Source of the DNA: Paramecium tetraurelia
Taxonomy: Eukaryota > Ciliophora > Oligohymenophorea > Peniculida > Parameciidae
Direction of reading: 5' to 3'
DNA: 64,000 nucleotides
Assembly (NCBI RefSeq): GCF_000165425.1
Contig: NW_001799032.1
Coordinates: forward strand, 1-64,000
Position 1 is the stretch's first letter. Each line of letters opens with the position of its first letter. The position numbers and the translations under genes were made by a program. Below the pieces are notes generated by a model. That model was not told the DNA's origin and ran no database searches. It was given only the letters and a program-made list of their open reading frames with translations. Below are positions 21,248 to 63,416 of the stretch, one piece after another.

Positions 21248-22294
21248 ATGTAAAAAGAATTATTAACAATATTAGCCCTAACATTGTTAGCAGGTACAAC
21301 CCTATTGAACACCACTTAAAGCTTAGAATCAACATCCTTCTTAGAGGACAAATTAATGAAGGAATACTAATTATGGTAATAGGAACATGGAAAAAGATAC
21401 TCTTCATTTGAAAACACACACAGATTTGGAATTTTTAAACAAAATTACGCTTATGTATAAGAACACTAAAAAAGATTTGAAGCTGGCTTAGAAACTTATG
21501 AACTTGGTATGAACGTCTTTGCTGATATCTCTTCTGAAGAGTTTGAAGCAAAACATTTAAACTTCAAACCATCCAATAAATAACAATCTGAATAAGTCTT
21601 CAGAGCACAAGGAAGATAAATCCCAGAAAGTGTTGACTTGAGAAATGATGGAGTCGTCGGTCCAGTCTAAAATCAAGGAAGTTGTGGATCATGTTGGGCA
21701 TTCTCTGCTGTTGGTGCTTTGGAAACAGCTGCAAGATAGAGCGGAGAAAAAAATGTTGAATTTTCTGAATAAGAACTTGTTGATTGTGTCAAAGGAGGAG
21801 AATATGAGAGTGATGGTTGCAATGGTGGTTTTATGTTCGAAAGTTTTAATTATGCCACAACTAATGGTATTGCTATCAAATCAGAATACCCATATGTTGC
21901 TGTTGCCTAAGATTGCTAAGCTAAAAAGACTAAAACTAGATTTTAATTCAATGGATTTGTTGAAGTTGAATCACTCAATTCCTAAGCCTACGTTGAAGCT
22001 GCATCTCAACATGCACTCTCTGTTGGTGTCAATGCAAAAGGAATCAATTTCTAACTTTACAAAAAGGGTATCTTCTCATCATAATGTGATGGAAAAATTG
22101 AATCACTTAATCATGCAATTCTCAATGTTGGATATGCATCAGATTATTATTTACTTAAGAATTCATGGGGACTTTCTTGGGGAGAAGCTGGATTTATCAG
22201 ATTTGCAAGAATTGCAAATAAAACTGGATAATGCGGAGTTCATTAGGATGTAACCTATCCAATTTACAACAAGAATTCTGCTGCCATTTAATGA
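21248..22294 (+). CDS. cathepsin L-like cysteine protease (papain family C1A), secreted/lysosomal preproenzyme
   Basis: Intronless, 348 residues. A signal peptide (residues 1-24, hydrophobic LLTILALTLLAGTTLL) is followed by an I29-type inhibitor prodomain (about 38-100, 'HGKRYSSFENTHRFGIFKQN', 'GMNVFADISSEEF'). The mature enzyme starts near 'IPESVDLRNDGVVGPVQNQG'. All catalytic elements are present: oxyanion Gln143, nucleophile Cys149 in GSCGSCWAF, His289 in NHAILNVGYA and Asn305 in KNSWG. Disulfide cysteines of the C1A fold (DGCNGG) are also visible. It hydrolyses proteins in digestive vacuoles or lysosomes, or is secreted; a ciliate digestive role is likely. Family assignment is firm, the exact subtype less so. 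Confidence 0.96.
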
Positions 22295-24531: not shown

Positions 24532-25275
24532 TCAAAATTGTTGTTTTATGCTTTCATTCTCTGATACTACTCTTCTTGGTAATTGAAAGACATAAGCTTT
24601 TTCAGCTAATTTATAGCGTTCATCAAGAATTGCGCAATTGATATACTTAGTTCCATTTTCCTCCGTCATCCCATAGCCTTCATGCACATGTCCAAAAATA
24701 TGATAAAGGGGCTTAACTTCTTTTATTCGATTAGCTAATGCTTGATCTCCCCATTCTCCCTCAGTAGGTTCGTAACTACTAACATAAGAGCTATGACCTA
24801 ATGGGGCTCCATGTGTTAAAACAATATCAGATCCTTCCTCCATTATTTTCCAAAATTCTTCACCATCTTCTTCATCAACTTAAAATGCCCATGGATTAAA
24901 AGGTATTGTTGGAGAATATGGACTTCCCCAAATCTTATATCCTTCTATAACGACAGAAGAATTCTCCAAGTAAATGCAACTTTACTTTAATTTCTCTTTC
25001 AGTTTTATATGATCCATGGGAGCATATCTTTTGTGGAATCGATCCCTGAGCTATTTTTCATATTTTTCAATATCTAGAAAAATATCATGATTTCCTGCTA
25101 TCACAACCTTATATTTAAAAGGTAATGCCTTTATCCAATCAATGAACACTTCGACTTCTTTGTATTCTCCATGTGTTGAGAAATCTCCACAATGGATAAA
25201 TACATCTCCCTAAGGAATTTCAATAAAGCGCGAATGAGTATCGCTTATGCAAACAAATGTTAGAGGATTGTCCAT
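24532..25275 (-). CDS. metallophosphoesterase (MPPED1/2-like)
   Basis: 247 residues, no intron. Calcineurin-like phosphoesterase motifs are present in order: DxH in CISDTHSRF (residue 11 on), GD in HCGDFSTHG (about 30), GNHD at 61-64, a histidine in LTHGAPLGH (about 154), and GHVHEGYG near 192. These bind two metal ions that activate water for phosphoester hydrolysis. The short length and the 'HGAPLGH ... GHVHEGYG' pairing are typical of the MPPED/UPF0046 group, which includes cyclic-nucleotide phosphodiesterases in animals. The natural substrate here is unknown. The start at 25275 places the DxH motif near the N-terminus, as is usual for the family. Confidence 0.92.
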
Positions 25276-32984: not shown

Positions 32985-34157
32985 TCAGTAAAGTTTAGGT
33001 TGTGGTACAGAGTTGATATTGTCAAAATCCTTAAAGTTGAATATCTAATCAATATTGCCCTTATTGGTAGCAGGTGAGAAAGGATTATTTGATGAGCTGA
33101 ACTGAGTACTAGAGCTATGAGTTAAGGATGTTTTTTGACTGTCCGAAAGGCTGGTTTTGACTGATCCACTACGAAAAATGATAATTAATATATACTTCAC
33201 TTCTAATGTTTTGATTGGAAGATTCTTGTGTCTGAATTTATTTTTGAGTTCCTCATTTTCATACTTATTGAAAATATTATTTAACTTCATCTATTTTTTA
33301 ATCCATCTACTTAAATATAATTATTAAACAGTAGGTCTATCATTTGGGTCTTTGGTTAATAACGCTTGAATTAGAATTTGTAAATCCTCATTAATATGAC
33401 TATTAACAACAATTTCTTAATTGGTTATCTTCCTTATTAACTCTGTTTAAGAATTGGCTTGAATTGGGAAATGAGTATGAAGTAAAATCTATTATGATAA
33501 ATAAAATAAAATTACATAGATTAATGCTCCAAGGGAATAGCAATCTACTTTATAATCATGTTATTATTTCAACACAACCTCTGGAGGCATATATTCAGTA
33601 GTTCCACAAAGAATGGGTTCGACTTTATTTATGTAAGTGGCCCAACCAAAGTCACCCAATTTATAAGTGCCATCTTCGTGCAGAAACACATTCTCTAACT
33701 AATTTAGAAGATATAAATTAAAATTTTACTTTCAAATCTCGATGGATTATTTTATTCTGATGTAAACAGTCTAAGGCTCCTAACATGGAAATACAAACGT
33801 TAAAGACTTCTTTCTCTTCATAGGGAGTCTTTGGAATTTGTAAGGAACCTCTCGAACAGTATTCGGAAATGATATAAATATTTTGATTGTTTTCGAATGA
33901 ATGATGTACTTTGAGTATGTTTTTGTGATTTAATGTTGATTGTATTTTAATCTCTTGTCTGACCATTGATTCTGCATTATATTTATTTAACATTGCTTTT
34001 GAAATCTATTCATTAACAAATGGATTACAATTTTGCAGGCGAAATACTTGTTTGAGCTCAAATCCAAGACCTGGTAGACTGTTCCAAAGGAGCCACTACC
34101 CAATTAGGCTTTCAAGGCGTAAGTGGTTCCATTACTCGACATAATGATGTTATTCAT
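32985..34157 (-). CDS. serine/threonine protein kinase, Aurora-like
   Basis: 354 residues after removing four introns (34006-34028, 33699-33729, 33489-33515, 33169-33195), leaving exactly 1,065 nt. All kinase signatures are present: glycine loop GSGSFGTVY (20-28), Lys42 in FACKI, Glu61, HRDLKLEN with catalytic Asp133, DFG at 151-153 followed by WA, and MPPE (172-175) after LCGTTEY. The 'GDFGWAT ... CGTTEYMPPE' context is closest to the Aurora group. A ~90-residue S/T-rich tail follows the catalytic domain. It phosphorylates Ser/Thr on unknown targets; a role in division or cilia is only inferred from the family. The activation-loop threonines are conserved, so it should be active. Confidence 0.9.
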
Positions 34158-41946: not shown

Positions 41947-44900
41947 ATGCTCCTTATTATTTTGAGCTTATGGACAGCTATTGCAAACGTGGCCAAGAAT
42001 GGCTGCAGTAATCATCACTTATATGCTAGCATCAAAACTGGACAAAATATCAATATTTCCGACAACGAACGAGATTTTAACCTGGCAAATCAAATCTGAA
42101 TTTTTTGATGGAGCTGATTTGACCTACACTTTAAGTGACTCTCAATAGAAAGAATTTCAGATCATACATCCCTTCGAACAAACTGGAAGAGATTCCTCAC
42201 ATAAGAATGGTAATGAAATAATATTCCATATTAAAAGTTGCCTCAAATATTGTTGCAGCCAAAGCAGCTAGAATATCCTCAAGTGGATTTTGGCTCAATA
42301 TGTTCGCGTTCCTAGATTAATCTGAAGATGAAGTTTATTTAAATATTGCCGAAGGGTACAATAACAGTTCTATATACAATAGTTCAGATGTAAGGGCATC
42401 TCCTTATTTCAATTAACGCTATTTAGTTACCAAAAGAAACAACTCAGAAATAACCTGCTTCGATGTTGATTTTACAAACACCCAGCAATACATTGTGGAT
42501 TGCCAAAAGTAAGTAGTCCAAGACGATAAAATCATATTACAAAATATATTTTTTGTACTCTCCAAGGATGGAACCAAAAATCAAGTGTTCACTGAAAAAG
42601 CCATCTTTTAAACCTATAAATAGAGGTTCCTTGGACAGTACACTGTAACCAATGCTCTCGGAATCACACATCAATACCTCTTCAGAGTGACACCAGCCTA
42701 CGCTGTTAGTTTAGATTCCGAATTGGCCTCAGACTCTTTGGTTGAAGTCTACTTAATATCTGCTTCTGGTGAACCTCAGAACACCAACTTTGTATTAGAC
42801 AAGGCTGTCTTGGCAGATACTTTGGGAGTTCCCAAAATCGACTTTTCTTTGGTTGATTTCTCTGTCCAACCAAATGGAGATATCTATTTGTTAGATGCCT
42901 TCAACGGTCTGTACATAGTCAAATATTTGCCAAATGGAGAATGGGAAGTGCAGAACATTGTCTATCCAAGAACAGGACAGGCCTTCGCATTTAGTGTGAA
43001 CTCATTCATCAAGGAAGATGAGTCATTGGCCCATGTGATTGTAGTGCAGGGATATAATTATTTCATTCAAATTGAGAATATGGAATTCAAATACATTTAT
43101 GATTTGCCATTCATTCAATTGGAGTATCCTGCCTACATTAAACTCTCTTAGGAGAATGTCATCATTAGAAATGAACACACCCTCTACTTATACAACATAG
43201 ACACTGAGAATGTCCAATTAAACTCCAGGTACACTCTCAGTTAAAAGGACATCATCTTGTTGAATCCTTACTTACCTGATTTGGTGGTCATATCAAATTT
43301 ATTATCCAAAAGATACACCTTATCCATGGGCCATTTGAAATACATGGGCAGTACAGGGGCTAAAGCAGTGAAGGACATTATCTTAACAGCCTACGCTCCC
43401 AACGAGTAAAAATGCTCAATCACCATCTCCTATCAAATATTGAATGACAGAGACCCTCAGATCTATAAGTTGGCCAATAGTGCCCATCCATTCCCTAAGA
43501 CTCTGGTTGAAGGAGACACGCATCAATAATTGCAATCTCAAGCATCTGGACCAAATATATAATACAAATTAGGCAATAAAGAATTGGAAGACACTCAAAT
43601 TTAGGGAGTCATCAATAAGAGATGGGTATTGAAAAAGGATTCCATTGTTTGGCCTACCAATGTTGTCTATGCTGATGTGTTGGTGTTAGAAAAGTAGACC
43701 TAATTTTATTAGATCATCCAAACTGATGACTTGAAATTGCAAATATGGCTTTGTGATCACCCCTCAATATTTGAATAAGAATTCAATTGCTAAAAAATAG
43801 TATCTGGTATTGACTTGAAGGTTACTGTTAACAAATAAACTTTCACTTTATGGAGACACGATTTAAACAACATATACTTTATGTACAAAGACACTGACTT
43901 TAGTGTGATAATCAAATATTATTATGCAGGAGAATTGAAAGTCTTCAAGCAATTGACTTATGATAAAACAGACCCTATGAACAAAATCAAATCACTATTC
44001 TTCGCTGATAACTATTTCTTTATTATCAAAGCAGACGATACCATCTTAGCATACTCCACCTATGATCATGAAAATCATGTCTTGGCCATAGCTGATGCCA
44101 ATACTTTCAAGCCTTATGGCTACTCCTTAAATTGGAAACCCTAGAGATTATTTGGAAATAGAAAGCTTCATCCCAATCTCATTTTTGTTGTTAACCAAGA
44201 CAATATTGTTCTTGTCGATTTCCACTATAAATTCACTTTTCTCCAAGAATTCGCATTCAAGGCTGGCCTCGAAGCAGAATTGGCCATTGCTGAAGACACC
44301 TTCTTCATTGTCTATGGATAATCAACTCAAGGAGCTAGAGATGGCTTCATTGAGGAATATGATTTCTCAAGATTAAACAATATCTTCAAGATCAAGACCC
44401 TCCAATTGTATTGGTATTAAATCACCTCGCCTTTGACTGTCGACTAGAGTGAAGAGAATGGAAGACTATTCGTAAGAGCCTATTGTAAATACTCAAAAAA
44501 AGCACATATCTTGGTGTTCACTCCTGATACTCTGTAACATGACACTCTTTTTGACGCTTGGAGTATCTCAAATGAAAACATTCCAGATGACGATAAGATT
44601 GTGATGGCTGTCGATGGAGACTAATAGATGTTCTTGTACACCTATGTAGATGGGTAGACCACCTTAGTTTCAGAGATGAAGAATTCCGTCATGACTCTTA
44701 AGGTTAATTTGGATAATGCCATGTATAATTCAAATATGAATTTGAATCTGATCGTGTCTAATTATGATTATCCAGATGAACCCTTCAACACAGTCAAAAT
44801 ATAGGATTAAGTGCAACTCATCAACACTTAATCAATAATAGAAATAGATAATACTAAATTCGATCTCTTCAAATCTGGAGTGATATTAAATTCTAATAGT

Positions 44901-47900
44901 TAATAAAAGAATGTTGAATTGGGCACCCAATGGTTCTCTGGTCAATTGGTTGGCATTGATTTGGAATGCGAACAATGTGAAAACCACATTATTGTTCAAA
45001 ACATTTTGGAAACCAATAATCCAAAATTCTTCAATGGATTTGAAATCAGAGAAGTGATTAAATATAATGATGATGCTAATATCTTTGTAGCCACGAAAGG
45101 ATTGATATTTACACATCCCGATAACACCTTGATGGCCACTTATCATTTCGATTTACCATCTCCAACTTATCGATGTTATCAAGCTTAAGTATCATCAGAT
45201 AAACTCCTCATTTACACTCTTTGCGAAGATAAAGGATAGTATTCCATTTATGTCACCGGATGTCTTTCTGTCACTGGATGTTCTCCATTAGGCGAGAAGT
45301 TTAAGATTGAACAGGCTTCAAAAATACAATTAATAGACAATGACATAATGGTTGTTTTACACACTGATAATTTCTAATACAGTGACGTTGATGGTCGTAT
45401 TGTTATCTATTAATTGAAGAAGGGATTAAAAACTTGGAATTTGGAAGTCTTGGATGTGATTGCAACTTAAACTTTGAATTCATAATTGGAATCACCCTTA
45501 GAATACTTTAGACCAAGTGATTTCACAGTCATTAAATAATACTAAAATTAAGATCAAACACTATATAAGATTATCATCAGCAATTCAAAGAATGGACTTG
45601 TATTCTATGATTTTACATTGACTAATATGAGATATCAATTCTAGTCAGTTGAATCAGTAGATTTATATAACTATTTAAATTATGAAGTCAATTAATATGC
45701 ATTTTCAAACACTCACTTCTTACAAGTTAGATTAACCGAACATCCAACATATGATAAAGATCAATAATAAATTCAACTTTAATTGTTGATCTAAACAAGC
45801 AATGCTGCTCATTATGGAATTTCCTTTACCTTCAAAAAGTAAGATAAGTCAGCATCCACCAAAATCAATTCAAAACAATTAGATTTTGTATTGAACAGAT
45901 ACTCCAATTGGCCTTCAATTAATAAAATTGCTACAAATGGTAACTACATTGCTATCCCCTATTTCAATGATAATGCACTACTTGTAGGACTATATAAAAA
46001 GTCTGCTTCCATTCCCACAACAATTATTAGTGGAACATACTTGTAATATATATAGGGATAACACATATCACCCTTGAATATGGCATTGTTCTTCGATCTC
46101 TCAAACGAGAAGTCACTGTATGCAAGTGAATTATCAGGCCCACTGAAAAGTTATGCATTATTAGATTCTCCAATCATTACTTTCAATAATCAAAATGGAG
46201 ATTTGAAAAATTAAACAGTTACAGTCTTCTTGCAAAATGATTTCAATATAGAAAAGACATAATTCAAATTAGAAGTCCGACCAATAGATTTAAATGAATG
46301 CAGAACCAAAATAACCAACATTTAGATTTACCCTTCCACTACCGAAGTCATGTCATGGCAATTATCAAATGGAATATTTGAGGGAGTTGGTTTGAAATAT
46401 ACCATCGAAGATAATTAAGACTTCACAATCATCCAGCCCATTACATAAATTAGTTCATCATAACACTGTACACAAGGTAAATCTTATAGTCTATATATAA
46501 TTAGTAATTGGATAGGTATCATCAATCAAGGCCTAATGGTTGCTGAGAGAATGGAATGGCCACTTTGCATTCTTGGACTACAGTACTGCTACAAATGGTT
46601 TGTATTACACCAAAGTTGCCGCTATGTAGAATCAAGCTCCTAGTTTCTCTGAAATAGTTTATGTAGATCCTGAAGCACCTACAATAAAATGTTTTGATTT
46701 CGACTATCTCAATTCTGAATCAGCAGATAATTTTATCATCGATTGTCAACTTGATCAACAACAAATCATCTACATAATCAAGGGGAAGACAATAAATTCT
46801 ATTTCCAAAATCAAATCATAATTCACAACTAATAAATTGAGATGGTTCAACAGATTGCCTTATGATGATGCCTCCTATTATTTGAGAGTGACTCCAGCCT
46901 TTTCGATTACAGAAGACGGCTCTGTTGGCAAAGTTTCATAAGTTGAACTCTTCCATTATGATGGCCAAGAAATAACCTTACATTCTACAATCGATAATGC
47001 TAAGTTCGCTCAATTGCTCAAAAAAGACAAGATAGATTTCATGTTGGTAGACTACAAGGTGTATAATGATGGCACTCTCTATCTTTTAGACCAGAAACTA
47101 GGAATTATCAAATTGTAATACAATCACAAAGATAAAGATTGGAAGCTTTTGGATCAAATTAATTTCACCTTATAACAATATGTAGCCTTTGACATAGATG
47201 ATTATGTGAATGAGAAAGGATAGTCTGTCTAGCATATCGTAGTATTGAGTTACAACTACTTTTTCGTTTTGGAAAACAAAGTCATAGTTAAAGTCATAGA
47301 TTTAGGTTATTTTGCTACAACCTATCCATAATAGATACAAATAAGTTAAAGAAACATCTTTATTCAACATGATAATGCTGTCTTTGTTTATGGATTCAAT
47401 GATGAATCAATTACCTTGTTAGATAAACAAGCAATCGTAGGAGGATACTCTGTTGATAAGATCAAAGATGAGTTTATAGCTATAGGTTAGAAGGAATCCA
47501 ACTTATACTTCTTCAGTTAAGGTGCTTTGAAGTATGAATTCAAATCCGGACAGATCAAGGATGGAGAAGTCAAAATAGTTGCTAAATCATTAAATAACTA
47601 GCAATGCCAATCAAATATCAAATACTCGATCATCAAGAGTGACGATTCCAAGATCTACAAGATAACTGAATCTGATGCACCCTTCCCACCTGCTGCAGAT
47701 GAAAACACAGTTATCGATCTCGGAGAGTTAACTTCAGGACCAAATTAAAAATATGAGGCTGTATACGAAACGACCGAAAATAATTGTTTTATGACAGAAT
47801 TAGAAGCATAAGAACAAATTCGAATTGTACAAAATACAAAATTTGAAGCTTAAGGCCAACCCTCAAATATATTATTCTAAACCTCCATTTTCCAACCTAA

Positions 47901-50551
47901 ATAATCAACTATCTTCAAAATATTCTAATTGAAAGATAAGAGTTTAGCTCTGTATTAGTCCGACCCCAAACTTGAAAATAATATTTACAAATTCACCTAA
48001 GTTGGAACTATAAAAGATATTACAGTTGAACTGAATGATTAGACTTTCTCTATTTGGTAGGTTGGAGATGTAATTGTAAGATTTGCGACTGCTATCAATG
48101 AATATAAAATCAATCTATATAGTTTTAACTTTTTTATGATAGAATTACTTAAAACAATATCATTCGAAGAAAAGGAGGGTTAATAAATAGTAAGTATCTT
48201 AAATTAAGGAGAATACTTATTTATTTTATAAAAGAACGGAGTGCTACATAGTTATTAAATATCAAAATTCAGCTTTGTTAATAAGGTAACTGGAAATGAT
48301 TTGATTGGATATGGTGGATAATGGATGCCAATTAAATTGTATGGTAATAGAGTGTTAAAATCAAATATTGTATTTGTTTAAAATGAAAACAATATTGTAC
48401 TAATTAATTACTTTAATACAGAATTCATTTTCGTTAAACAAATGGATTATACTAAGGGTGATGAGATATATATTTCATCTGCTAAGGATTCATTCTTTTT
48501 AGTTAAAAATAAGGAAATAATAGAATATAACTATTAAAATTTATTGAACATTTTCAAATCAAAGACAGTTGAATTATTTGGATACACTATAGTAAATCCA
48601 TTAACTGTTAAATTTTAATTATCAACTGGTAATCTGATCATTAAAACATCTAAAGCATAGGATTTCTATTTAAATATATTTAGACCATCTACTACTTAAC
48701 ATGACACATTCTACTTAGCAATCTCAGTATTAACACTTAAAGATGATCCTCAATTTACCATATCAGTTGCAGAAGATGATGCAATACTGCTTAGTATCAA
48801 TCATTCTCTCCTACAAGCAATTCACAAGATTGAAAAATCTCCTCTCTTAGTTTTTAATCCAAAATTTGATGAGAAAACTTACTTTTATAATGCAAAGGTG
48901 TCTGTAATTGTGAAGAGCCAGGATGACTAGAATAATTAAGTTACATTTAAATAGAATGTAAGACTTGTAAATACATTTTCATCTTTGAGTGTCAAAAATG
49001 CAAATTATACCATTTCGACCAATTCAACCAAATCTGTTGAATTCCCAGTTGAGGCAGTTTATGGACAAAACATTTTAACAACCCTTAAGACCTTCTATGT
49101 GACAGAGGGCAACGTTTACTTGAAGGCTTTGGTCTAATAACTTCCGCGAAAGAAGATCGTTGACTATAAAATAAATTATGGTTATTCCAAGGACAAAGAT
49201 ACTTTCTATTTACAAGCCAAGAATACTTTATTAATTGGTACCAATTTAGGTGAAGATTTCTCCTATAGACCAGCAGAATATACACTATCTGATCAATACA
49301 ATTGCTTTAGAACAGACAATTACAAAGATATGTTTTATTCCATTTGTAATAATGGAGTTGAGAATTAATTGGTGTTGACTAAATGCGTAAACAAGAAATG
49401 TCAGTTGGTTAATTCATACCTTGCAATTCCTAATGGATATTAAGTTATAGCCCCTTATGAGGATTACATTATCGTGTTGTTTTACAACCCCTTAAGTCCG
49501 CAAGATTAGGATGGAGAGTACAAGATGTATAGGATAATTCAGAATGATGCATTCTATGTCTAAAAAGAGGTGATGTCAATGAATTTGGAGTTCATCAAAA
49601 CCAATTTAAATAAGGATGCAGTAACTTTCAGGCCATCTGGTATGACAGGAGTTGGAGTTGAAATAAGTAAAGAAACTTACGTATATTTGTCAATGGTAAC
49701 TGACTGCTTTGATGAATTGAGGTACAATAGTTTCTTGTTCGAAAACAAAGATATTCAGCCTACTAGATTTGGGTCAATTTCACTAAAAAAATTGTTGAGT
49801 AAACAAATCATAGATCAGACTCTCTTCTTATCCACTTAGGTGAAGTCTTCCTTGTTTGAGAAAGATGTGTTAACAGTTGATTTAGTGATTTTGACTTCAG
49901 ATTCTGGAACATTCTGGATTGTGGTGAAATTTAAATACAACAAGGACGAAAAGAGATTTGAACATCAGCAATCAGATATAAAGAGTACATTTGTTAAGTA
50001 CGGGGATTGGAAAGTACTCAATTATTTGGCAGTTGATTCTTCATCAATTGGAGTTGCTTATTATAAAGACAATTAAGTGACTGTGGGCATTTATCAGATC
50101 CTTAAAGAAAGTCCTTACTTTTTGACAACTGGAGGTAATCAATTTGTGGTCACCAATTAACAAGATTTGAGTCCATTAAACTTCTTAATGTTCATATAAG
50201 TATATATTTTATATCTATTTAAAGACAAACTAATTGTACAACAGCAACCCGAATGAAAAAGGATTAACTAAATTCATGTTGAATACAAATAGTTCAATTG
50301 TGATAACTGAGCCTTAAAAAGTGGAAAGTTAAAATTTGACTTTGACCTTCAAGAATGATTTCTCAGAGGCAGTGTAAAAGATTGCTCTATAAATTATACC
50401 AATTGATGATGACGACGACTCTAGCAAAGGACTGGGGGCAGTTTGGATAGTGTTGATTGTGCTTAGTAGTTTGGTCGTTCTGGTTTTAATGGGTTATGGT
50501 TACTATAAGTCATAAGACCCAAATAAAGAGGAGGATGCTCAATTAGTATGA
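41947..50551 (+). CDS. giant type I membrane protein, two tandem ~1,400-residue modules (giant A)
   Basis: About 2,824 residues with five introns (42008-42029, 42210-42237, 42356-42382, 46477-46504, 50200-50224); the exons total exactly 8,475 nt. A signal peptide (MLLIILSLWTAIANVAKNG) opens module 1 (to ~46290); module 2 starts at ECRTKITNIQIYPSTTEV (46293 on). Each module begins 'C-x-x-K...YP/FP...E..W', has a conserved blade-like strand such as GDIYLLDAFNGLYIVKY (module 1) and GTLYLLDQKLGIIKLQY (module 2), and carries further beta-rich repeats; module 1 also has GCLSVTGCSPLGEKF near 45265. The C-terminus is DDDDDSSKG, one helix (AVWIVLIVLSSLVVLVLMGY) and a short acidic tail. I do not recognise the module; a propeller-rich ectodomain is inferred. 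Its paralogue follows 77 bp downstream. Confidence 0.85.
48151..48710 (+). repeat. tract shared with giant B (56837-57396)
   Basis: From AAAACAATATCATTCGAAGA at 48151 for about 560 bp, module 2 of giant A matches giant B at a constant offset of 8,686 bp. By eye the first ~90 bp are almost identical and the remainder is around 90% identical, far above the surrounding similarity. This fits partial gene conversion or a recent shared exchange between the neighbouring paralogues. Confidence 0.7.
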
Positions 50552-50627
50552 AATATTAAAATAAAAACAATAAAATATTGTAATTTAAAATGCCTAATCT
50601 ATATCCATGTAATAAATAATTTAATTA

Positions 50628-53600
50628 ATGAATTAAAAGATTACATCATCTTTGATAGTATTCTTAATTTGTCTTTCAATTGTGAATGCCAAGTCAACGG
50701 GGTGCTGTAATAATACATCTTATTATCTTTAGCTTCAAAAGTGGAGCAGTTGCAACTATTTCCCACGAAAGGTGAAAAATTGCGAATCAATCTACATGAT
50801 AATCTATTTGAGGGAGAGGATCTCACATATGAGTTGCAAGACACATATTTTAAATTAATTAATCCTGTACAAAATACCGGAGGCAGCTCAACTCATTATA
50901 AACGTATATTGACATGTTAATTATCTAGCTGCATCGAACATCAGGGCAGCAAAGCCATATCACACAAAAAAAATGCAATCTTGGTTGAATTCATTTGTAT
51001 TCTTGGACCAAAACGCACTGGAAGTGTCCATTTAATATTCAGAGGGGTAATTGTTAATGTAGAATTTAGAACTGCCTTGGACAAAATTCCAACTCCAGGT
51101 TTCGGGACCAAAGTAGTTATTGCAAATGTGGTCGATAATCTAGAGTGTTATGACGTAGAATACATTGATAACGATAAATTTATAGTGGATTGTCAAAAGG
51201 AAGTCACAGAGAAGTTAATCAAAAAATAAATTGATGTGTTCTATATTTACTCAAAACAATCATAAAAAGTGACATCGTTTGAAGATGAAGCATCAGTCAA
51301 AATCTACAATTAAAGACGTATAGGGTTATATTACTCAACCAGTGCATTAGGAAAGGAAACTACTTACATTGTGAGAGTTACACCAACCTATTCGTTGGAC
51401 CCAAATGAATAACTCTCTGGAAATTCAATCGTATAAGTTTACACATTGAGTGACAACTACTAACCCTTGCCTCGTCCATATATTCTAGACAATGTGACTA
51501 TGGCATTTCTATTAGGCAAAACTGATGTAGAACTTTCAATTGTGGATTTCGAAATGACATACAATGGATACATTTTCCTATTGGATGCCCAATACGGTCT
51601 CTTTGTGGTCAAATTCTAACCAACTGGAAAGTGGGAATTATTTGCACAAGCCGACTTTTAATTAGGCAGATCCTTTGCTTTCGATATCGATTATGAACAC
51701 AAAAAAGATGGCTCAGAACTTGGCGTAGTTGCAGTTCTTGGATACAACTTCTTCGCTATTTTGGATACAGAAAAATCTTATGTTCACAACCTTCCATTTA
51801 TGTAGTTGGATTACCCAGCCACTATTAAAATATCATAAGACAATATCATAGTAAGAAGTGACAAGTAGGTTTATTTCTATAAACTTGATGTGGATACTGA
51901 CACCATCTACCTAAACTATAAGGTGGACATTCCTTCCACTGATGTCTTATTGGTGAATCCATAAGAACCAGATCTGATCCAAATTAGTACTTAAAGTTCA
52001 AACAGATACACTATTTCCAATGGTTATTTAGCATACAACGGAAGTGATAAGGTCTAAGACAAGAAGGTGGTTGCTATCAAGGCCAAAGCTCCAAATAAAT
52101 AAGAATGCTAAGTCTTCCTTTCATATCAAATTATTGAAGATAATGAAAATTGGATTTATCAATTGTTTGATAAACCTGTGCCTTTCCCAAATGTGATTGC
52201 TGATGGGGAAACTGATTAAGTTTTGAAAAAATTAGCATCTGGACCAAATCTCTAATATAGATTAGTTAAACCAACTTAATTGGAAGCCACAAATATCAAA
52301 GCCACCATTAGATCAAGAGTTGAATTAAGTCTAAATCAAGAGCTACCCAAAAATGTAATTTATGCAGAGATTGTATCAACAGAAGACGATACTCAATTCT
52401 ATTAAGTTTTGTAGACTCAGGATTTGAAGGTTCAAATCTTAAATTGTGTTCACAATTCTATTTATGTTGAAGATGCATTTTGTGAACTCTTAGTAGCAGA
52501 TATAGGAATCTCAAGCAAAGTCAGTAAACAGAACTTCTCCATTTGGAACAGACAGGGCATAATATATTTCATGTACATCAGTGAGTAATACAATGTTGTG
52601 ATTCGAGCAATTCATAATGGTGCAATAACTCCAGTGAAGACTATATCATTGGATTCTACAGACACAGCAAACAAGATTTAAAGTATTTTAAATTGTGGAG
52701 ATTATCTTTTGGTTCATAAGGCCAATAATGAAATCGTAACATTCTTAATTTACAGACCAGAACTATTCGCACTCACAACTTTAAACAAGAATTCCTTCTC
52801 ACAATATGGTTACAATGAAGAATGGGAACCAAAAGCACTCTTCACAAATAAAAAGTTGCATCCAAATATTCTGTTCATCTTACACAAAAATCATATCTTG
52901 ATGTTGGATACAGATTATGGAATGTTTTCATTCATTAAAACCATTCCAATTACTCCAAATCTAGATTATTCAATTGCTATTGGATAAAGTACATTCTTTG
53001 TTGTCCAAGGAAAATCAGCTCAAGATGTCTATGATGCTTAAATCTATGAATACAACTTTGCAGAAATCAATCATGTCTATTTGTAGAAGAAATTGTACTT
53101 GTATTGGTATGACATATCTACTCCATTGAACGTTGATTTCAGCGAGGAAACTGGTAATTTGTTTGTCAGAGGAGTCTGTCTATATTGCAGTAAATCCTTT
53201 ATCTTGGTATTCAAACCCAACACTCCTCAACACGAGGCCTTGGTCTAAGCTTGGGATATTGCTGATGTCGTTATTCCAGAGACAAAATCCATCTTGATTG
53301 CTGCTAATGGATTCAAATAAAACTATTTATACTTGAATGTTGAAGGTGAACAATCAATCTTTGCAGTTTACGATCAAACCACAATGACTGTTGAATCATT
53401 CATCGATTCGACTATTTATTAGGATACATATTCATTGAATTTCTAGATCAGAAACTACAATTTCCAAGGTAAACCTGAAAAGTTTAACACTGTCGATATC
53501 ACTTAAGATGTTACCACCATTAGTACTTTAACCTAAATCAATTTGGATGAAAATGCCTTCCCTTATTCAAAATCAGGAATACAGATCTTTTCAACTGATG

Positions 53601-56600
53601 ATTAGGCTACTTTTGATTTGGGTCAAGGTTGGTACTCTGGTTAAATTGGAGATTTCGAAATTGATTGCGATCAGTGCGAAACCAATGTTGAATTGTAAAG
53701 CACTGTTGATTTACTCAATCCAAAGATCTTTAATGGTTATGAGATTAGAGATCATGTCAAATACAATGATAAGTTTAATATCATGTAAGCCACAACTGGA
53801 TTGATATTTGTTAATCCTGACAACTCATTGGCCTCAGTCTATGATTTCGATCTCCCCAATTTCGAATATCAATGCTATTAAGCCACTGTTTCTGAAGACA
53901 AAATGGTTGTTTACTCATTGTGTAATGATGGAACTGAATTCACTGTTTATGCCACCGGATGCTTTTCCATCACTGGCTGCTCTCCATTGGGTGAAAAATT
54001 CAAACTCGGAGTAGCTTCAAAAATTCAAGTAGTATCCAATGAACTCTTGGTTGTTTTGCACACTGATGCCGATCATCCAGAACTTATTTAGGATGGCAAA
54101 ATCGTTCTATATAGAATTGCTATGGGATTAGACAACTGGAAACTTGAAGTCATTGAAATCATCGATTTGAATTATCTTAATTCTGTATTGGCAACTCCAT
54201 TGGAGGATTTCAAACCAGCTGATTTCTAAGTGGTTAAACAAAAATCCATATCAAATGGCAAATATTCTTATAAATTGTTCATCAGTGATGCAACTAGTGG
54301 TTTCATTTTTATGGATTTCTCATTTTCGGAATTACCTGAATATTAGTTCTTGTCCATTGAATCCCTCAACCTCCACGAATATTTAAATAGGCAAGTCGGT
54401 CAATACACACTCCCAACAACTAAATTCTTATCATTCCAATTCGTTTGGGATCCGATCTACGAATGGAGTTCAGACGAATTGAGAGTCTACCCTCTGATTT
54501 TGACATCTGATGTCTCATAATACGGGTTCAAGTTTGTCTTCTCTGCTCAACCTACCTCCAATACCTTACTCAACATTAAAGCCTTATCTGCTGTCATAGT
54601 CAAATATGGAGACTGGACTCCAATGAATAAACTAGCCATCCAAAATCAGAACTTACAATTAGCCATTCCATATTATTAAAAAGATTAAATTGTTGTAGCC
54701 GTCTATAATATAGATATAATTATAGAAAATCCATTCGCTACAGTTGTTCCCACAATTAGTGTTGGCACCTATGAAGTATACTATTCAGAAGGTCAGTGGT
54801 TAAGCCCATTAAATCTAGCTGTGTTCTTTTCCAAAAAGGGTTCAATTCTTTTTGTATCCCAATTGTAAGGACCCCTTTAAAGTTACGGAATCTATAAATC
54901 ACCAATTTTAACATTGAAAAACCAAGACAGAGACTTAAAGAGCTAAGATATTACACTTTTTGTGAAGAATAACTTTTATGAAAACTATTTAACATTCAAA
55001 TTGTATGTGCAAGAAGTTGATAATCATGAATGTACTGCAAAAATCACAAATCTCCAAATTTACCCATCTACAGGCGAAGTTTTAACATGGAATTTGTCAT
55101 AAAATATTTTCGATGGTGTTTCTTTGAAATATCATTAAGAAGACACTGATGATTTCACAATCATACAACCAACTACATAGATTGGATAATCGATAGATCA
55201 TAAATAAGGTAATGATATATTGTTATATAATTAGTTGCAACATAAATTGTATCTGCAAAGGCACTGTTGACTTAGAATGGGGCCTGGTCCAATCAATTTG
55301 GATTCTTAAACAAGATTGGATCCAAGTATTAAATCCTCTATTCAGACACGTAATTTTTATTTCTAAAATAGTCCTGCAATAAATGCTGCTCCATCATTTA
55401 ACCAAGTTCTTAATGTTAAGAAGATCGATGCAAATCTTAATTGCTTAGACTTCGTACAATTGTCCGTTACTAGTTTTGTTATCGATTGCTAAATCCAAAA
55501 TAATAAATTCCTAATATTGATCAAGGATACCGATGAAACCTAAACAACCCCAATTGCAAACACTTAATTAAATAGAGCTTTAGGTACATACAAGATTAAC
55601 GATTTACAATTTGTCGTAAGAGTTACATTATCTATCACAAATGATGGACAATTAGCCAATGATTCATTTGTCGAACTATTCTAATATGCCAGTGGTTAAT
55701 TACAAGCCAAGTAAACCTTAGACAAATCTAAATTATCTACTATCTATGGAAAATAAATTGATGAATTGAATATCGTTGATTTCAAGATTGGATTAAATGG
55801 ATCGATTTATTTGTTAGATGCCAAGCTGGGAATCTTTGTTGTTAACTATGATATAGATTGGAAGTTCCAAAAATTGATCACATTTAGATTTGGTCAAACC
55901 TTTGCATTCGACAGAACCATACTCGAAAATAAAGAGGAAGCATTTGTAGTTTAAGGATATAATTACTACATAGTAATTGATTCTAATGGACAAACCAAAA
56001 AGGTGTAAGATTTGTAATTCAATACCATCACCTACCCCTAATCCATATCAGCAAGTGCCAACTTCGTTTTTGTCAAGCATTAATCATCTTTATATGTCTA
56101 TCACTCTGATGACTCTAACACTGGCTTGATCGATTTAATTGAATCACCCAATCTTACTGCTATTGTTAATCCATTTATTCAAGAAATCGTAACACTTTCT
56201 CTTCAATCCTCTGCCAGATGGAACATAAGCTTAGGATCACTGAAATTCAATGGAGTTAATCAAGCATCTTAAGGATTCAAAGACTTAACCATAATAGCCA
56301 CCTCATAACATAAATTGACATGTTCCACCAGGATCTAATATCAAGTGATTGAAAGTAGCAGTAAAGCTCCAATCAAGAAAAATAAGTCGGATCAACCATT
56401 CCCATAAGTTTTCGATGATATCTTTGAATAGTTCTAATTGGGTAATCTAATTTCGGGTCCAAATCTTGAATACAGCTTATCATTACCAAAAACGCCACTT
56501 GATTTCAGTGCTTAAGTTGTCTAAAACAGAGAAATATAAGTTTCAAATTGGCCCAAGACACCTTTATATAGTACTGAATTGGTTGGAAATGATAGAGAAA

Positions 56601-59600
56601 CTTTGTTCCAAATTTTCCAGACATAAGATAAGAAGTTAACAATTTCAATTTGTGTTTTGACTGATCATATTAAATATGTTTGCTAAGATTATGGAAATGT
56701 TTAGCTTTAAGAAAAAATATCTGATCAACTATTCAGTATATGGTAAGATAGCGACAACATTGTGAGATTCATTACCATTTCAACCTCATATAAAGTAACA
56801 AGTTATCTAGCTCCAGACGGTATTGTCATTGAAGACAAAACAATATCATTCGAAGAAAAGGAGGGTTAATAAATAGTAAGTATCTTAAATTAAGGAGAAT
56901 ACTTATTTATATTATAAAAGAACGGAGTATTAAATAGTTATTAAAGCGAAAAATTCAGCTTTGTTAATCAGATAACTGGAAATGCTTTGATTGGATATGG
57001 TGGATAATGGAAGCCAATTAAATTGTATGGTAATAGAATGTTAAAATCAAACATTGTATTTGTTTAAAATGAAAACAATATTGCTCTAATTAATTACATT
57101 AACACAGAATTCATTTTCGTTAAACAAATGGATTATACTTAAAATACTGAAATCCACATTTCAGCCGCTAAAGATTCATTCTTTTTTGCAAACGATAAGG
57201 AAATATTGGAATACAATTATTCAAACCTTTTGAACATTTTCAAATCAAAGACAGTTGAATTATTTGGATACACTATTGCTACTCCATTGACTGTTACATC
57301 TTAATTATCAACTGGTAATCTAGTCATTAAAACATCCAAAGCATAAGATATCTATTTAAATATATTTAGACCATCCCTTACATAGCATGATACATTCTAT
57401 TTAGCATTTAAATTAAATGGTGTTAAATAAGGAGATCCATTTTAATTGTCTTTAGGAGGTTCTCTATACATCATAACTCTTGCAAATGGAGAAAAGATTC
57501 AATAATTAAACTTTATTTTATTGAACCCTGAATTAATTGTTATCCCAATCAAAAAGCTTTAGAAATTTGTTTCAAACTTCCATGTTATAATGGATATTAT
57601 GAATGGGGATGACTAAACTTAAAAAGTGCATTATGAGTAAGATATAAAAGTAGCTAATACATTCACAAGTTTGATAGTTAATGATGAAGAATATTTAAAA
57701 TCAATCGAAATAAATGAAAATGATGGAAAAACTGAAGTAGCCATTAGATCTGATTGGATTGGAGGTTAAATAATAAGTACAGAATTGTCTTAGTAATCAA
57801 TCACTGATGACATAACACTTTTACCTTTTGTAAGCCAAGATTAGGCAGTCTTAATGGATTATTCAATTTATGATGTTGCTAAACCTTAGGCTGTCACCTT
57901 TTTGCAAGCTTCAAACACAGTTTTGTCATTCAAGGGAGACGACTTGAAAAATGCTCAGCCTGTTTTGACAAAATTGTCGGAGCACTATAAATGCTTCAGA
58001 TTAGAAGCCGATAGCACAAGACTTTATTCTGTTTGTAATAATGGTGTAGAAGATTAAATTTAAGTGGCTACTTGTGATGATAAATAGAAATGTTAAAGAG
58101 AAAATGCTTACATCTCAGCTCCATTCGCAACTTAAATTGCTGCTTTGGCTTAAGATGTTATTGTTGTTCTTCATACTGATTCATTGAATCCTGAAAACTA
58201 TGATGGATATATTACAATTAGAAAATTAGTATAAACTGATGGAATCTGGTCATCCACTACATTATTAACCATTGATTATGACTTCATTAAATAGAAATTT
58301 GGAGCATAAGCACCTAAATAGTTTAGACCATCTTCATTTATCCATTCACCAACAGGAAACAGTGTATCTCTCTACTATTTATAATTGATTATTACTGATA
58401 GCGTTAATGGTTTATTGTTTGTAGATTTAACTCTTTCAAAGACAACTTCAGAATTGTAGTATCAATTTTCAGAATATAAACTTTTGAAAGATTGGCTAAA
58501 TATTGATCAATATGCTACTGATGATACTCATTATTATTAAGCCTAAATTGTAACATCATAAGTTGAATATCCTACCAAAAAAACATTAAAATTAGCTCTT
58601 GTAACTGACATTTCATCCTCATATGTTTTTGAATTAGTTTTTGCAATTCAAGCCAATGTTTCTTGTAAACTAAGCACAATAAGAACTATTTTTGTTTTGA
58701 ATAGATATGGTAATTTCAAGGCATTGAACTATGTTTCAGCCTCATCATCCTCAATAGCAATCCCCTATGTTAATAACCTAGAGGTGATCATTGGAGTTTA
58801 TAAGATTCCAACTGATCTATAGAATGGTGCAGTTTAAACTATATAGGGATCTCACACATTTGCTCACTTTAAGAAATAAATCACTCCTCAAGATTTCTTA
58901 ATTTATAATACAGACAGTCTATTCTTGACAAGTACTACATAAATGGGAGTCTATCAAAATTAAGTTAGATATCAGTAAGTATTGAAATTCGGAGAACCTA
59001 AAAACTTGCATAATCAAAAGTTGACTTTGACATTTTAGAATGATTTTAGAAGAGTAGTCAGAACTATAGATTTATCCATAATACCTGTAAATAAGGATGA
59101 ATGCAAAACCAAGTTGACAGATCTTAAGATTTACCCATCCCAAGGCGAAGTTATGCAATGGGCATTGACTTAAAACTTCTTCGATGGTGTTTCTCTGAAA
59201 TATAGTGTAGACTAAGCTGACTTTTCAGTAGTTTAACCATTGACTTAGGTTGGATAATCAGTTAATCATATATAAGGTAAGGATATATTATTATATAATT
59301 AGTTGCAACATAAATTGTATCTGCAAAGGCACTTTTGACTTAGAATGGAGCCTGGTCCAATCAATTTGGATTCTTAAATAACGATGGATTAAAATATTCA
59401 ATTTACTATTCAGACACGTAATTTATTTTTCTAAAATAGTCCTGCAATAAATGGAGCTCCATCTTTTAACCAAGTCCTTAACATTAAGAAAATGGTAGAG
59501 CATTCCATTTGCGGAGACTTTGTGTAGCTATCTAAAACTGAATTTGTTGTTGATTGTTAAATTAATGATAATAAAAATTTAATTTACCTAAATGGAAATA

Positions 59601-62600
59601 TTGAATTAAATACAATTATGATTGAAGATACTTTAATGAAAAGATTATTAGGATCATATCAAATCAAGGAAGTGAAATATGTTGTAAGAGTTGCATTGTC
59701 AATCACAAGCGAAGGTTAGTTGGCTCATAAATCATACGTGGAATTGTTTTAAATATAAAATGATGGCCCTATACATTTAGCAACATTAGATAAAGCTAAA
59801 TTAGCTGAAATTACTTTCAAGTAAATAGATGAATTGAATATCGTCGATTTCAAGATTGGATTAAATGGATAAATTTACTTATTAGATGCTAAGATGGGAA
59901 TCTTTGTTGTATATTTCGATAAAGTTTGGAAATTCTCAAGATTTATTGAACAAAAGTTTGGCTAAGCCTTTGCATTCGATAGAGCCGTGCTTAGTAATAA
60001 ATAGGAAATATTTGCAATCAAGGGATACAATTACTATGGAATAATTAATAAAGATGGAAAGATAATAAAAATATAGGATCTTCCTTTTGCTAGTGTGACA
60101 TATCCTTAACAGATTAGATTAAGTGGCAAATATGTGTTTTTACAAAATCAAGGAAATCTCTACATCTACCATTCTGATGAGAATAATACTGGTCTTATCG
60201 ACATTGTAAATCTGACAAACTCAGCAGGAATCGTAAATCCTAATAGTTAAGAAATAGTAACTGTTTCATTAACATCCTCATCAGCTTGGAGCTTTAGTTT
60301 GGGATCCTTGAAATTCAATGGAAATGCATAAGCAAGTACTAATTTCAAAGCTGTGACAATTTAAGCCAAATCTTAACACAATCAAATGTGTTATTCTAGA
60401 ATTTACTATCAAGTATTGGCAAGCAATAGTGAGACTATCTACAAAAAGGTTGAGACTGAAACACCATTCCCTAATGTTTTAGATGAGAATGATGAACAAA
60501 TTAAGTTAGGAAGTTTGGTATCAGGTCCAAATTTGATATATGAAATTGTTCAACCAAAATCACCATTTGCCTCAAGGTTGAATCAATTTTTAGGTGTTGC
60601 TGCAGACCCAGATTTCGATGTGAACGCTCAAATTGCACATTAGAGATCTATTCAAGTTACTAACTGGCCAAAGAAAGCATTGTATTAGACATCCTTAGTT
60701 GCGAATAATTAAGAGACTCTTTTCTAAGTTTTCTAATAAGAAGACAAGAAGCTTATTATTTATTCTTGTGAATTGGTTGATCACGTAAAATATGAGTGCA
60801 AGGAGTATGGTAATTTGTAAGTGCAAGTGCAATTATCAGATTAGATCTTCAGCATATGGTAAGATTCTGATAATGTCGTTCGTTTCATTACATTGGATAC
60901 ACCATTTATCATTAAATTCTTGGAAATTAAGAATAATAAGACTGTTTAATATGGATCAATCAAATTAAATGAAGCAGAAGAGAAGGATGAATTAAAAGCA
61001 GTAGCATTCTAAAATCAAGGAGAAAATCTGTTTGTAATTTAGGAGAGTGGAGTTTTATCATCATATTCTACTGAGTCTTTCTTAATTATCAACTCAATTA
61101 CAGGCTAAAACTTGATTGGATTCTAAGGAGAATGGAAACCTATTAAATTATACGGAAATAGAATTTTAAGACAAAATGTTATTCTTGTTCAAAATGAGAA
61201 TAATGTCGTGATTATCAACTACTAACACCAAGAATTCATTTATGGATCTAACATTGCCTATACCAAAGGCAACTAAATATACATAGCCTAAGCTACTAAT
61301 TCATTGTTCCTTGTCAATAACAAAGACTTAAGTGAATACAATTACGAATAAGTTAACAATGTTTTCAAACAAAAGACTGTAGAACTATTTGGATATCAAA
61401 TCACACAACCTTTGAGTGTCTCTTCACACTTAAAAACAGGTATTTTGGTTGTTAGAACTACAAAGAATGAAAATGTTTACTTGAATATTTACAAACCAGA
61501 TCAATTACAACACGAGACATTCTATTTGGCTGTTAAGATTAATGGCAAGGTAGATGATGCATTTACATTATCTGTAAGTGGATCAGACCCAGTAGGATCA
61601 GCTTACATAGTTGCCTTAGCCAATGGCGAAGCTGTTTAATAATTGGAATTTGTTGTACTTGATCCAGAATTGATTCTTATACCCAATAAATAAAAACAAA
61701 AGTATCTTACTGATTATGAAGTTTCAATCAATGTTAAGAATGCTGATTCATAAAATAACAATATCCTTCCATTCACTTAAAAGGTCAAGGTAATCAATAC
61801 ATTCACTAGTTTAATTGTTGATGATACAAAGGCAACTTAATAAATTGAAATTGAAGCCAAGCAAAATTCAACTGCTGTCAAGTTGACAAATGGATGGATT
61901 AGTGGATAGTAGGCTTATTGTACATTAACATAAGAAAAAGCTAACGATATTGTCGTTTAATCATATCTCTACGAAACAAAGAACTCTGCATTGAAGAATT
62001 ATTAATTCAAAGACGCTTAAGCCTTCTAAAAGAATGTTATCTTTTAAGCTATGAATAACGTACTCTTAATGAAAGACAACAAATTAGAAGAAAGCACACC
62101 TCTTCTTGAGGCATTAGGTCAAGAATATGATTGCTTCAGATTAACATCTTTTGAAAAGTCAATATATTCTGTTTGTAATAATGGTGTAGAAGATTAAATT
62201 TAAGTGGCTACTTGTGATGATAAATAGAAATGTTAAAGAGAAAATGCTTACATCTCAGCTCCATTCGCAACTTAAATTGCTGCTTTGGCATAAGATATTA
62301 TTGTTGTTCTTCATACTGATTCATTGAATCCTGAAAACTATGATGGATATATTACAATCAGAAAATTAGTATAAACTGATGGAATCTGGTCATCCACTAC
62401 ATTATTAACCATTGATTATGACTTCATTCAATAGAAGTTGGGAGCATAAGCACCTAAATAGTTTAGACCATCTTCATTTGTTCATTCATTAACTCATTCT
62501 GATGATAACTCACTTTCAGTTTAATTCATTATTTCTGATAGTGTAAATGGTTTAGCCTTTATTGATTTCAGTTTCCCTAAGAATACATATGAGCCCAAAT

Positions 62601-63416
62601 ATTTATTCATGGAGTATTAGTTACTTTAAAAGTGGCTGAATGATAACAAACATTATGCTAATGATAATACACATTACTATGCTAATAAAATTGTTGAAGA
62701 ATCCATCAAGGAGAAAATCAAGAGCATCACATTAGTAGTAGTTACTGATAATTCATCATCTTATGTTTTCAATCTCTAATTTGCCATATTAGACAATTAA
62801 TCAAACAAGTTAACAAAAACAGAAGTTAAAGTGGCTTTGAATAGATACGGAACATGGAAGGCATTAAACACAGTTGCTGCCAATAAATAATCAGTTGTTG
62901 TAGCCTTTTACAATAATTCAAAAGTCGTCGTTGGTGTTTATCACATCACTGAAAATGCTATCTCTGTAATAAATGGATCATTTTCATTCACAACACAAGG
63001 AGTTTAAAAACTGGAACCAGTTGATTTCCTCCTTTATTTACAAGTAAATTTATATTTATATTTTTTAGGAATCTTCTTTGATAGCCAGCAAAGTCAGCAA
63101 GGGCTTGTAACAATATGAGATCAGGAACGATATCACTTTAAGCTTCGGAGAGAGTGCCAAGTTGGAAAACCAAACCTTAACCATAACATTTTCTAATGAT
63201 TACAGATAAGTGTCGAAATAAATTAAATTGAGTATCAAACCAGACGATGGAGGAGATGATGATGATAGCTCAGGCTCTAATGCTTGGTGGATAACCCTTG
63301 TAGTTGTTGGATCCTTAATCGTACTAGGATTAATTGGATTTTTCTTCTACAAAAAGAGAAAAGACAACGAAGAGGAATAAGAAGATTAAGACACTGGATA
63401 TGCACCTCTAAATTGA
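50628..63416 (+). CDS. giant type I membrane protein, three tandem modules (giant B)
   Basis: About 4,197 residues with eight introns (50707-50732, 50904-50928, 51047-51069, 55209-55234, 55350-55371, 59277-59302, 59418-59439, 63044-63068); the exons total exactly 12,594 nt. Signal peptide: MNQKITSSLIVFLICLSIVNA. Three modules start at about 50745, 55028 and 59098. Hallmarks recur in each: the entry motif (IYPSTGEVLTW, IYPSQGEVMQW), then 'ATQIVSAKALLTQNG', the strand GSIYLLDAKLGIFVVNY or its equivalents, and GQTFAFD-like turns. Module 1 has GCFSITGCSPLGEKF near 53960. The end is an acidic DDDDSSGSNA, one helix (WWITLVVVGSLIVLGLIGFF) and the tail YKKRKDNEEEQEDQDTGYAPLN. Same family as giant A with one more module. 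The role is unknown; a surface receptor, adhesin or coat is inferred. Confidence 0.86.
55209..55311 (+). repeat. module 2 copy of a homogenised intron/exon tract
   Basis: About 103 bp starting at a 26-nt intron and running into the following exon matches 59277-59379 in module 3 with about five differences, only two of them inside the intron. Identity extending through an intron points to exchange at the DNA level rather than protein-level selection. Confidence 0.8.
58025..58340 (+). repeat. module 2 copy of a near-identical tract (pairs with 62165-62480)
   Basis: About 316 bp match 62165-62480 at an exact offset of 4,140 bp with roughly six or seven mismatches by eye (~98% identity). The flanks diverge sharply on both sides (ACTTTATTCT versus AATATATTCT on the left, TTTATCCATTCACC versus TTTGTTCATTCATT on the right). 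This is best explained by recent gene conversion between modules of giant B. Confidence 0.85.
59277..59379 (+). repeat. module 3 copy of the homogenised intron/exon tract
   Basis: Partner of 55209-55311. The 26-nt intron and the next ~77 bp of coding sequence are nearly the same as in module 2. Confidence 0.8.
62165..62480 (+). repeat. module 3 copy of the near-identical tract (pairs with 58025-58340)
   Basis: Partner of the tract at 58025-58340. The encoded segment includes SVCNNGVEDQIQVATCDDKQ and the following cysteine-containing stretch. Confidence 0.85.

Follow-up and report, generated by a model that had tools for sequence, protein, structure and literature searches.

What a cell adheres to, feeds on and mates with depends in part on its giant surface proteins. 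LRP-type, integrin alpha and plexin receptors are single-pass proteins in which a huge ectodomain of repeated large beta domains is followed by a short tail, and the sortilin/Vps10 receptors are also single-pass with a short tail. In ciliates, the accessible text of one source describes the surface antigens of Paramecium as high-molecular-weight proteins with a cysteine periodicity running through the whole protein, some having internal tandem repeats and one group having predicted transmembrane domains (PMC9788069). Mating-type recognition in Tetrahymena, according to the available part of another source, uses large membrane proteins, and MTA, MTB and MRC1 have five helices and a GFR domain (PMC10901506). 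Here, we analyzed a stretch of 64,000 nucleotides of Paramecium tetraurelia DNA (the window), which corresponds to bases 1-64,000 of the 175,917-base contig NW_001799032.1 (C79). Two adjacent genes of this window, g1 and g2, encode giant proteins in which a module of about 1,400 residues is present twice and three times, respectively.

We hold with moderate confidence that g1 and g2 belong to a Paramecium multigene family of single-pass membrane proteins, with a beta-rich, cysteine-bearing ectodomain of about 1,400 residues per module that matches no named domain, which grew by stepwise addition of modules and would act as an arm in adhesion or recognition.

Gene models and module architecture

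The gene models, module counts, family, module relationships and constraint on paralogue pairs were computed here. We read the models with ciliate code 6 (TAA and TAG encode glutamine) and allowed short introns. This resulted in a protein of 2,833 residues for g1 (4 introns) and one of 4,197 residues for g2 (8 introns). The 12 modelled introns are 22-28 nucleotides (nt) long each; in the accessible part of PMC11334263, more than 95% of Paramecium introns are given as 20-34 nt. An initial sequence-only reading of the window had proposed two same-strand genes separated by 77 bp. Adjacency, strand and coordinates are retained, with 76 bases between the stop of g1 and the start of g2. The same reading took no account of introns, and on this point it fails: each gene is split by introns, neither is open in a single frame, and we rejected a single-frame reading in favor of the splice model. 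The frame breaks at the TGAs ending at 55270 and 59338 arise because introns are left unspliced. Likewise, the stretch given as an example of a module, 55028-59097, cannot be read as intron-free, since it spans the introns 55209-55234 and 55350-55371 of g2. Other g2 introns start at 59277 and 59418. A first splice model, with introns at 55249-55275 and 59317-59343, was replaced by one with introns at 55209, 55350, 59277 and 59418, which make the modules align.

The modules are 1,341-1,418 residues long, counting the last one of each gene with the tail, and the five of them (numbered m1 to m3 within each gene) align over their length with 24-54% identity. A profile built from these same modules identifies two domains in g1 and three in g2. 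Hence, the proposed repeat of about 1,400 residues and its counts, two in g1 and three in g2, are borne out. The first modules of the two genes share 40% identity (g1m1-g2m1), and the later ones share 39% (g1m2-g2m2), 34% (g1m2-g2m3) and 54% (g2m2-g2m3), while first and later modules are only 24-28% identical. The opening motif suggested before, C-x-x-K...YP...E..W, holds in part: C-x-x-K and E are present in all five modules, YP in only three, with FP in its place in both first modules, and W in four (it is missing in g2m1). The strand G-x-I-Y-L-L-D-A-x-x-G is recognizable in all five, as had been noticed. Twelve cysteine columns are common to most modules, and cysteines are sparse, with 24 in the 2,833 residues of g1 and 38 in the 4,197 of g2.

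Intron places follow the modules. All five have a phase-1 intron after HKQ-type residues, and three (all those of g2) have a phase-2 intron after YSE/YSD, which is likely also present, unmodelled, in g1m1. Two further introns depend on the position of the module: one of phase 1, inside the opening C codon, is confined to first modules, and one of phase 0, close to the end, to last modules. The likely g1 intron outside the model would lie at 42356-42382, by homology with the other modules that have the phase-2 intron there. As its 27 nt are divisible by three, leaving it unspliced would not close the frame; with it removed, g1 would encode 2,824 residues.

A hydropathy scan revealed a single hydrophobic helix in each protein, 20 and 22 residues from the C-terminus in g1 and g2, respectively. 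It is preceded by an acidic stretch, in line with the acidic juxtamembrane stretch, single helix and short tail described earlier. Signal peptides had also been proposed: hydrophobic starts can be recognized by eye, but the 19-residue hydropathy scan, at its threshold, flags the N-terminus of neither g1 nor g2. A surface location is predicted because of the hydrophobic start, the shared cysteines and the single helix, and the layout of a type I surface protein is supported by the sequence. Across the family described below, a C-terminal hydrophobic helix is found in 13 of the 21 model rows.

A constrained family with one to four modules

We searched the organism's own genome (69 Mb, 231 contigs) with four different members as queries and grouped the matches by hand, which resulted in about 24 related loci on 14 contigs. 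This number is a lower bound, and the members other than g1 and g2 were out of reach of the sequence-only reading. In this count, the adjoining C184 models 127144-128483 and 128707-131749 are one gene, and a short match, C166:94017 (E value of 5e-4), was left out. At E < 1e-5, the module profile matched 21 predicted models, i.e., g1, g2 and 19 others, with split pieces counted apart. One of the loci, C54:151484-152425, covers just part of a family gene and has two TGA in frame; it is perhaps a pseudogene or a gene with unspliced introns.

Among the modelled genes, several modules were found only in g1, g2 and the partner of g2 on a duplicate scaffold (C184:168272-185134, minus strand), whereas the remaining 16 modelled genes have one module each in the stretches examined. 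The C184 partner has four modules, with 72-80% identity in the longest stretches. Module numbers of 1, 2, 3 and 4 thus all occur within one genome, and the variation in module number expected from the window is confirmed. No g1-like match was found in the 8,090 bases beyond the partner. The intron places and phases of the window modules recur in several single-module genes, and most single-module genes with a modelled end have one more intron just before the helix.

To assess selection, we computed the ratio of nonsynonymous to synonymous divergence (dN/dS) by NG86 for five paralogue pairs in six comparisons, with g2 taken in two parts. The values are 0.145, 0.151, 0.142, 0.195, 0.159 and 0.145, for dS of 0.45-2.13, of which the top value is near saturation. 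Within the C184 partner, modules m2b and m2a give 0.376 at a dS of 0.13. The values between genes are those of constraint, unlike a diversifying antigen.

A profile of the five window exons gave 62 and 104 pattern matches in bacterial (genome) and viral contig collections, respectively, none of which was confirmed. In searches of open papers, we recognized no description of the family; gene models, named or unnamed, may well exist in ParameciumDB or in subscription papers.

Identity and fold of the module

The module had been called unrecognized, and profile scans agree: no Pfam or NCBIfam model passed its cut-off with the five window exons, nor any Pfam model with the 21 family members (18 families were listed at E up to 1). 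Among PDB sequences, one exon as query gave no match at E up to 1, and the 21-row profile gave a single match, at E=1.5, which is not a propeller and not convincing. Of the 925 windows with strong periodicity, 513 are of beta type, compared with 46 ± 3% in shuffled sequences, which suggests a beta-rich module.

One might expect the module to be a highly diverged member of a named architecture, a beta-propeller plus an immunoglobulin (Ig)-like part, and not a new domain. We regard this as a serious possibility, if one that falls short of even. The periodicity fits it, as do sub-threshold Pfam matches to CNH (E=5.3e-4, in 1 of 21 members), to the At2g24240 propeller (0.014, on a unit consensus), to ANAPC4_WD40 (0.019, in 1 of 21 members) and to the Ig-like Big_3_2 (0.041, in the window exons). 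Yet unrelated folds score alike (SAM_HAT_N 0.006, TcaA_2nd 0.014, CdsD_C 0.037), the only PDB match of the profile is of another kind, and the module profile does not match the WD40 proteins of the window itself. In the WD40 comparison, shuffles equalled the scores of the units 20, 4 and 2 times out of 40; the comparison is not significant, and a WD40 origin of the module is unsupported. A search of the own genome for the CNH family gave no match anywhere, and the controls were equally without match.

What the sequence-only reading took as one module may itself comprise three beta-rich units (U1, U2 and U3). With the full family profile, the U1-U3 comparison scores 39.6, against 15.2 ± 2.6 for column-shuffled profiles (0 of 60 as high) and 18.9 for the reversed one, and its alignment matches a conserved cysteine and the L-D-A-x-x-G strand; the shuffles thus support homology between the first and last thirds of the module. 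The score is 29.1 for U1-U2 (shuffles 0 of 60, reversed 16.8) and 21.7 for U2-U3 (shuffles 0 of 60, but reversed 20.7). From the five window modules alone, nothing stood out as a three-unit repeat. Replicates split by clade were mixed: U1-U3 was positive in two of four combinations (U1A-U3B, and U1B-U3B in another register) and failed in U1B-U3A and U1A-U3A, and U1-U2 was positive in one of two. We regard the three-unit repeat as likely rather than shown. Extending the preferred reading of an unnamed ectodomain, one could tentatively, and with more doubt than belief, see a ciliate-specific class with three diverged beta-rich units per module, forming an extendable recognition or adhesion arm of 3, 6, 9 or 12 units, its length tuned by module duplication within the gene and by gene conversion after whole-genome duplication.

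Proposed growth of the module number and probable gene conversion

We built a tree of 23 rows (midpoint root, 17 of 20 inner branches starred), with a long-branch warning for C167, C81, C128, g1m2 and others. On one side of it stand 11 rows, the tandem modules together with the single-module pair C30/C220, and on the other the remaining 12 rows, all of single modules. Among the tandem modules, first ones cluster with first and later ones with later, so g1 and g2 probably derive from a gene that already had two modules. The split between g2m2 and g2m3 would, in this tree, predate the scaffold duplication. In the C184 partner, modules m2a and m2b are 97% identical in DNA over 4,075 nt and 75-82% identical to g2m2 in protein, so the fourth module would be recent or homogenised.

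Near-identical tracts connect some of the modules. The 539-nt tract shared by g1m2 and g2m2 (89.6% identity) is flanked by blocks of only 35-66% identity and exceeds the 83% between g2m2 and C184. The 324-nt tract is 97.5% identical between g2m2 and g2m3, against 83% between these modules and their C184 counterparts. Both are consistent with gene conversion after the scaffold duplication. A third, shorter tract, shared by g2m2 (55184-55381) and g2m3 (59252-59449), has 132 of 150 coding bases alike and lies at the two-intron module start.

Taken together, the tree, the intron places and the near-identical tracts are consistent with growth from one to two, three and four modules, in an order that we infer as follows. 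The ancestral gene would have had one module, a helix and a tail. In one lineage, the module would have been duplicated inside the gene, and the two-module gene then duplicated in tandem to give g1 and g2. The later module of g2 would have been duplicated again, leading to three, and the fourth module would have arisen in the partner copy on the duplicated scaffold.

Function and alternative readings

Outside the cell, the modules may be strung into a long rod or an arm with several sites, which would bind a partner or ligand. The predicted role of such an arm is adhesion or recognition, on the surface of the cell, the cilia or the oral region, its short tail serving for anchoring and sorting and not for signalling, and more modules would provide longer reach or more binding sites (valency).

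Several observations weigh against the adhesion or recognition arm and the growth history proposed for it. Many models begin at an inner ATG, so that their true starts are missing, and some are cut. The stretches fetched around most members are short, and further modules may lie outside them, for instance at the two genes on C128, which are separated by about 2 kb. Eight of the 21 model rows have no C-terminal helix: C81, C184_178158 and C184_127144 come from cut or split models, and the other five (C174, C167, C79_90065, C184_122657 and C7) are mis-modelled or truly without helix. In C79_94428, a second hydrophobic window, a weak one, lies close to the modelled start. N-glycosylation sequons are depleted relative to residue shuffles, with 11 against 26.5 ± 4.6 in g1 and 20 against 40.4 ± 5.5 in g2. 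A 2-nt length difference breaks the frame of the C184 partner in module 2a, near C184:178098-178180 (loci L009 and L011), which may reflect either a dead copy or an assembly error. Finally, the tree joins C30/C220, first modules and later modules in an open fork, and its root was placed at the midpoint; hence, growth from a single module rests on parsimony.

Sequon depletion also varies within the family, being seen in some other members and absent in others.

Among the other functional readings, endosomal or phagosomal receptors for sorting or uptake, with a sortilin-like role in which the lumen-facing part binds cargo and the tail carries sorting signals, are unlikely. The single helix, the very short tail and the low number of N-glycan sites in g1 and g2 would suit them, and Y-A-P-L in the g2 tail and E-D-A-Q-L-V at the end of g1 resemble, by eye, sorting motifs as these are generally defined. 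However, motifs this short can occur by chance, other members have different tails, and neither the five window exons nor the 21 members matched Vps10/sortilin at E up to 1. We find a role in mating or partner recognition on the ciliary membrane rather improbable: long ectodomains of several modules would be well suited to contact between cells, and mating-type recognition in Tetrahymena relies on large membrane proteins, but g1 and g2 have one helix, and the 21 members no GFR-type Pfam match at E up to 1.

We give the least credence to variable surface-coat antigens, i.e., a further set of Paramecium serotype antigens displayed one at a time. This reading would fit proteins that are large, internally repeated, encoded by many genes and variable in module number, with near-identical tracts between neighboring genes, and the antigens described above include some with internal tandem repeats or predicted transmembrane domains. 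Against it stand the sparse cysteines, dN/dS of 0.14-0.20 in five paralogue pairs, the helix near the C-terminus and PF01508 (Paramecium_SA), for which none of the five window exons or 21 members gave a match at E up to 1. With 20-22 residues and a charged tail after it, the helix would also argue against the glycosylphosphatidylinositol anchor of surface antigens. PF01508 has 150 scored matches elsewhere in the own genome, of which all those listed are over the cut-off, and none in 14 control genomes, which, with code 6 and introns of 22-28 nt, fits a Paramecium. The label antigen-like, given by the sequence-only reading, is therefore not supported, and adhesion, its other suggestion, may hold.

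Under the preferred reading of an adhesion or recognition arm, the family of about 24 loci presents a constrained ectodomain that passes no Pfam or NCBIfam cut-off and is separate from the cysteine-rich serotype antigens. There is a modest chance that this real, constrained and unnamed ectodomain with a variable module number is a distinct ectodomain class. As versions with one, two, three and four modules occur in one genome, the effect of ectodomain length is testable by knock-down of single members.

Feature coordinates and other genes of the window

Table 1. Coordinates in the window of the two genes, their modules and other features
Feature	Position	Strand	Basis or remark
Gene g1, two-module giant protein	41947..50551	+	Splice model; ATG at 41947, stop ends 50551; introns 42008-42029, 42210-42237, 46477-46504, 50200-50224
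g1 module 1 (first-position type)	42004..46298	+	Module alignment
g1 module 2 (later-position type), end approximate	46299..50400	+	Module alignment
Near-identical tract, g1 module 2	48151..48689	+	Partner 56837-57375 (g2 module 2), 89.6% over 539 nt
g1 acidic juxtamembrane stretch, approximate	50401..50431	+	Sequence DDDDDSS
g1 predicted transmembrane helix, then 20-residue tail	50432..50488	+	Hydropathy scan
Gene g2, three-module giant protein	50628..63416	+	Splice model, 8 introns; ATG at 50628, stop ends 63416
g2 putative signal peptide	50628..50690	+	Read by eye from gene model
g2 module 1 (first-position type)	50703..55030	+	Module alignment
g2 module 2 (later-position type)	55031..59101	+	Module alignment
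Near-identical tract, g2 module 2	56837..57375	+	Partner 48151-48689 (g1 module 2)
Near-identical tract, g2 module 2	58025..58348	+	Partner 62165-62488 (g2 module 3), 97.5% over 324 nt
g2 module 3 (later-position type), end approximate	59102..63250	+	Module alignment
Putative internal unit U1, g2 module 3, boundaries set by hand, approximate	59102..60350	+	Profile comparison
Putative internal unit U2, g2 module 3, approximate, weakest case	60351..61790	+	Profile comparison
Putative internal unit U3, g2 module 3, approximate	61791..63255	+	Profile comparison
Near-identical tract, g2 module 3	62165..62488	+	Partner 58025-58348 (g2 module 2)
g2 acidic juxtamembrane stretch, approximate	63241..63275	+	Sequence DDGGDDDDSS
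g2 predicted transmembrane helix, then 22-residue tail	63291..63347	+	Hydropathy scan

Elsewhere in the window, an open frame of 1,824 residues (2883-8354, minus strand) has 12 stretches matching DUF4215 (PF13948, E value of 1.5e-93). Three WD40-repeat proteins are encoded on the minus strand, at 754-2355, 12910-14541 and 22490-24094, the second and third being 28% and 33% identical to the first. The window also has a papain-family cysteine protease with an I29 propeptide (21248-22291, plus strand), a calcineurin-like phosphoesterase (24535-25275, minus strand) and the C-terminal part of a protein kinase (32988-33590, minus strand). A pattern search of the window found no telomere repeats, although it begins at base 1 of the contig.

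Comparison with known systems

Two candidates from the literature were set aside. The mating-substance gene of P. caudatum, in the accessible part of its description (PMC10974281), encodes a kinase-like protein of 489 residues and is not alike. The mucocyst docking complex of Tetrahymena, as far as the available text goes, consists of LamG and carbonic-anhydrase proteins with no visible link to the present family; sortilin is named there (PMC9159632).

Among the closest systems, the sortilin/Vps10 receptors have the same single pass and short tail as g1 and g2, but their Vps10 domain has no match in the g1/g2 family. MTA, MTB and MRC1 are, like g1 and g2, large ciliate membrane proteins; they have five helices and GFR, where g1 and g2 have one helix and no GFR match. 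The Paramecium surface (immobilisation) antigens (PF01508) come from the same kind of organism and are also giant, extracellular and multigene, with internal repeats in some, while the g1/g2 family is without PF01508 and has sparse cysteines, a near-end helix and constrained paralogue pairs. With the LRP-type, integrin alpha and plexin receptors, g1 and g2 share the single helix, the huge repeated ectodomain and the short tail, and differ from them in that the list of 18 families obtained with the 21 members at E up to 1 has no YWTD, FG-GAP or Sema.

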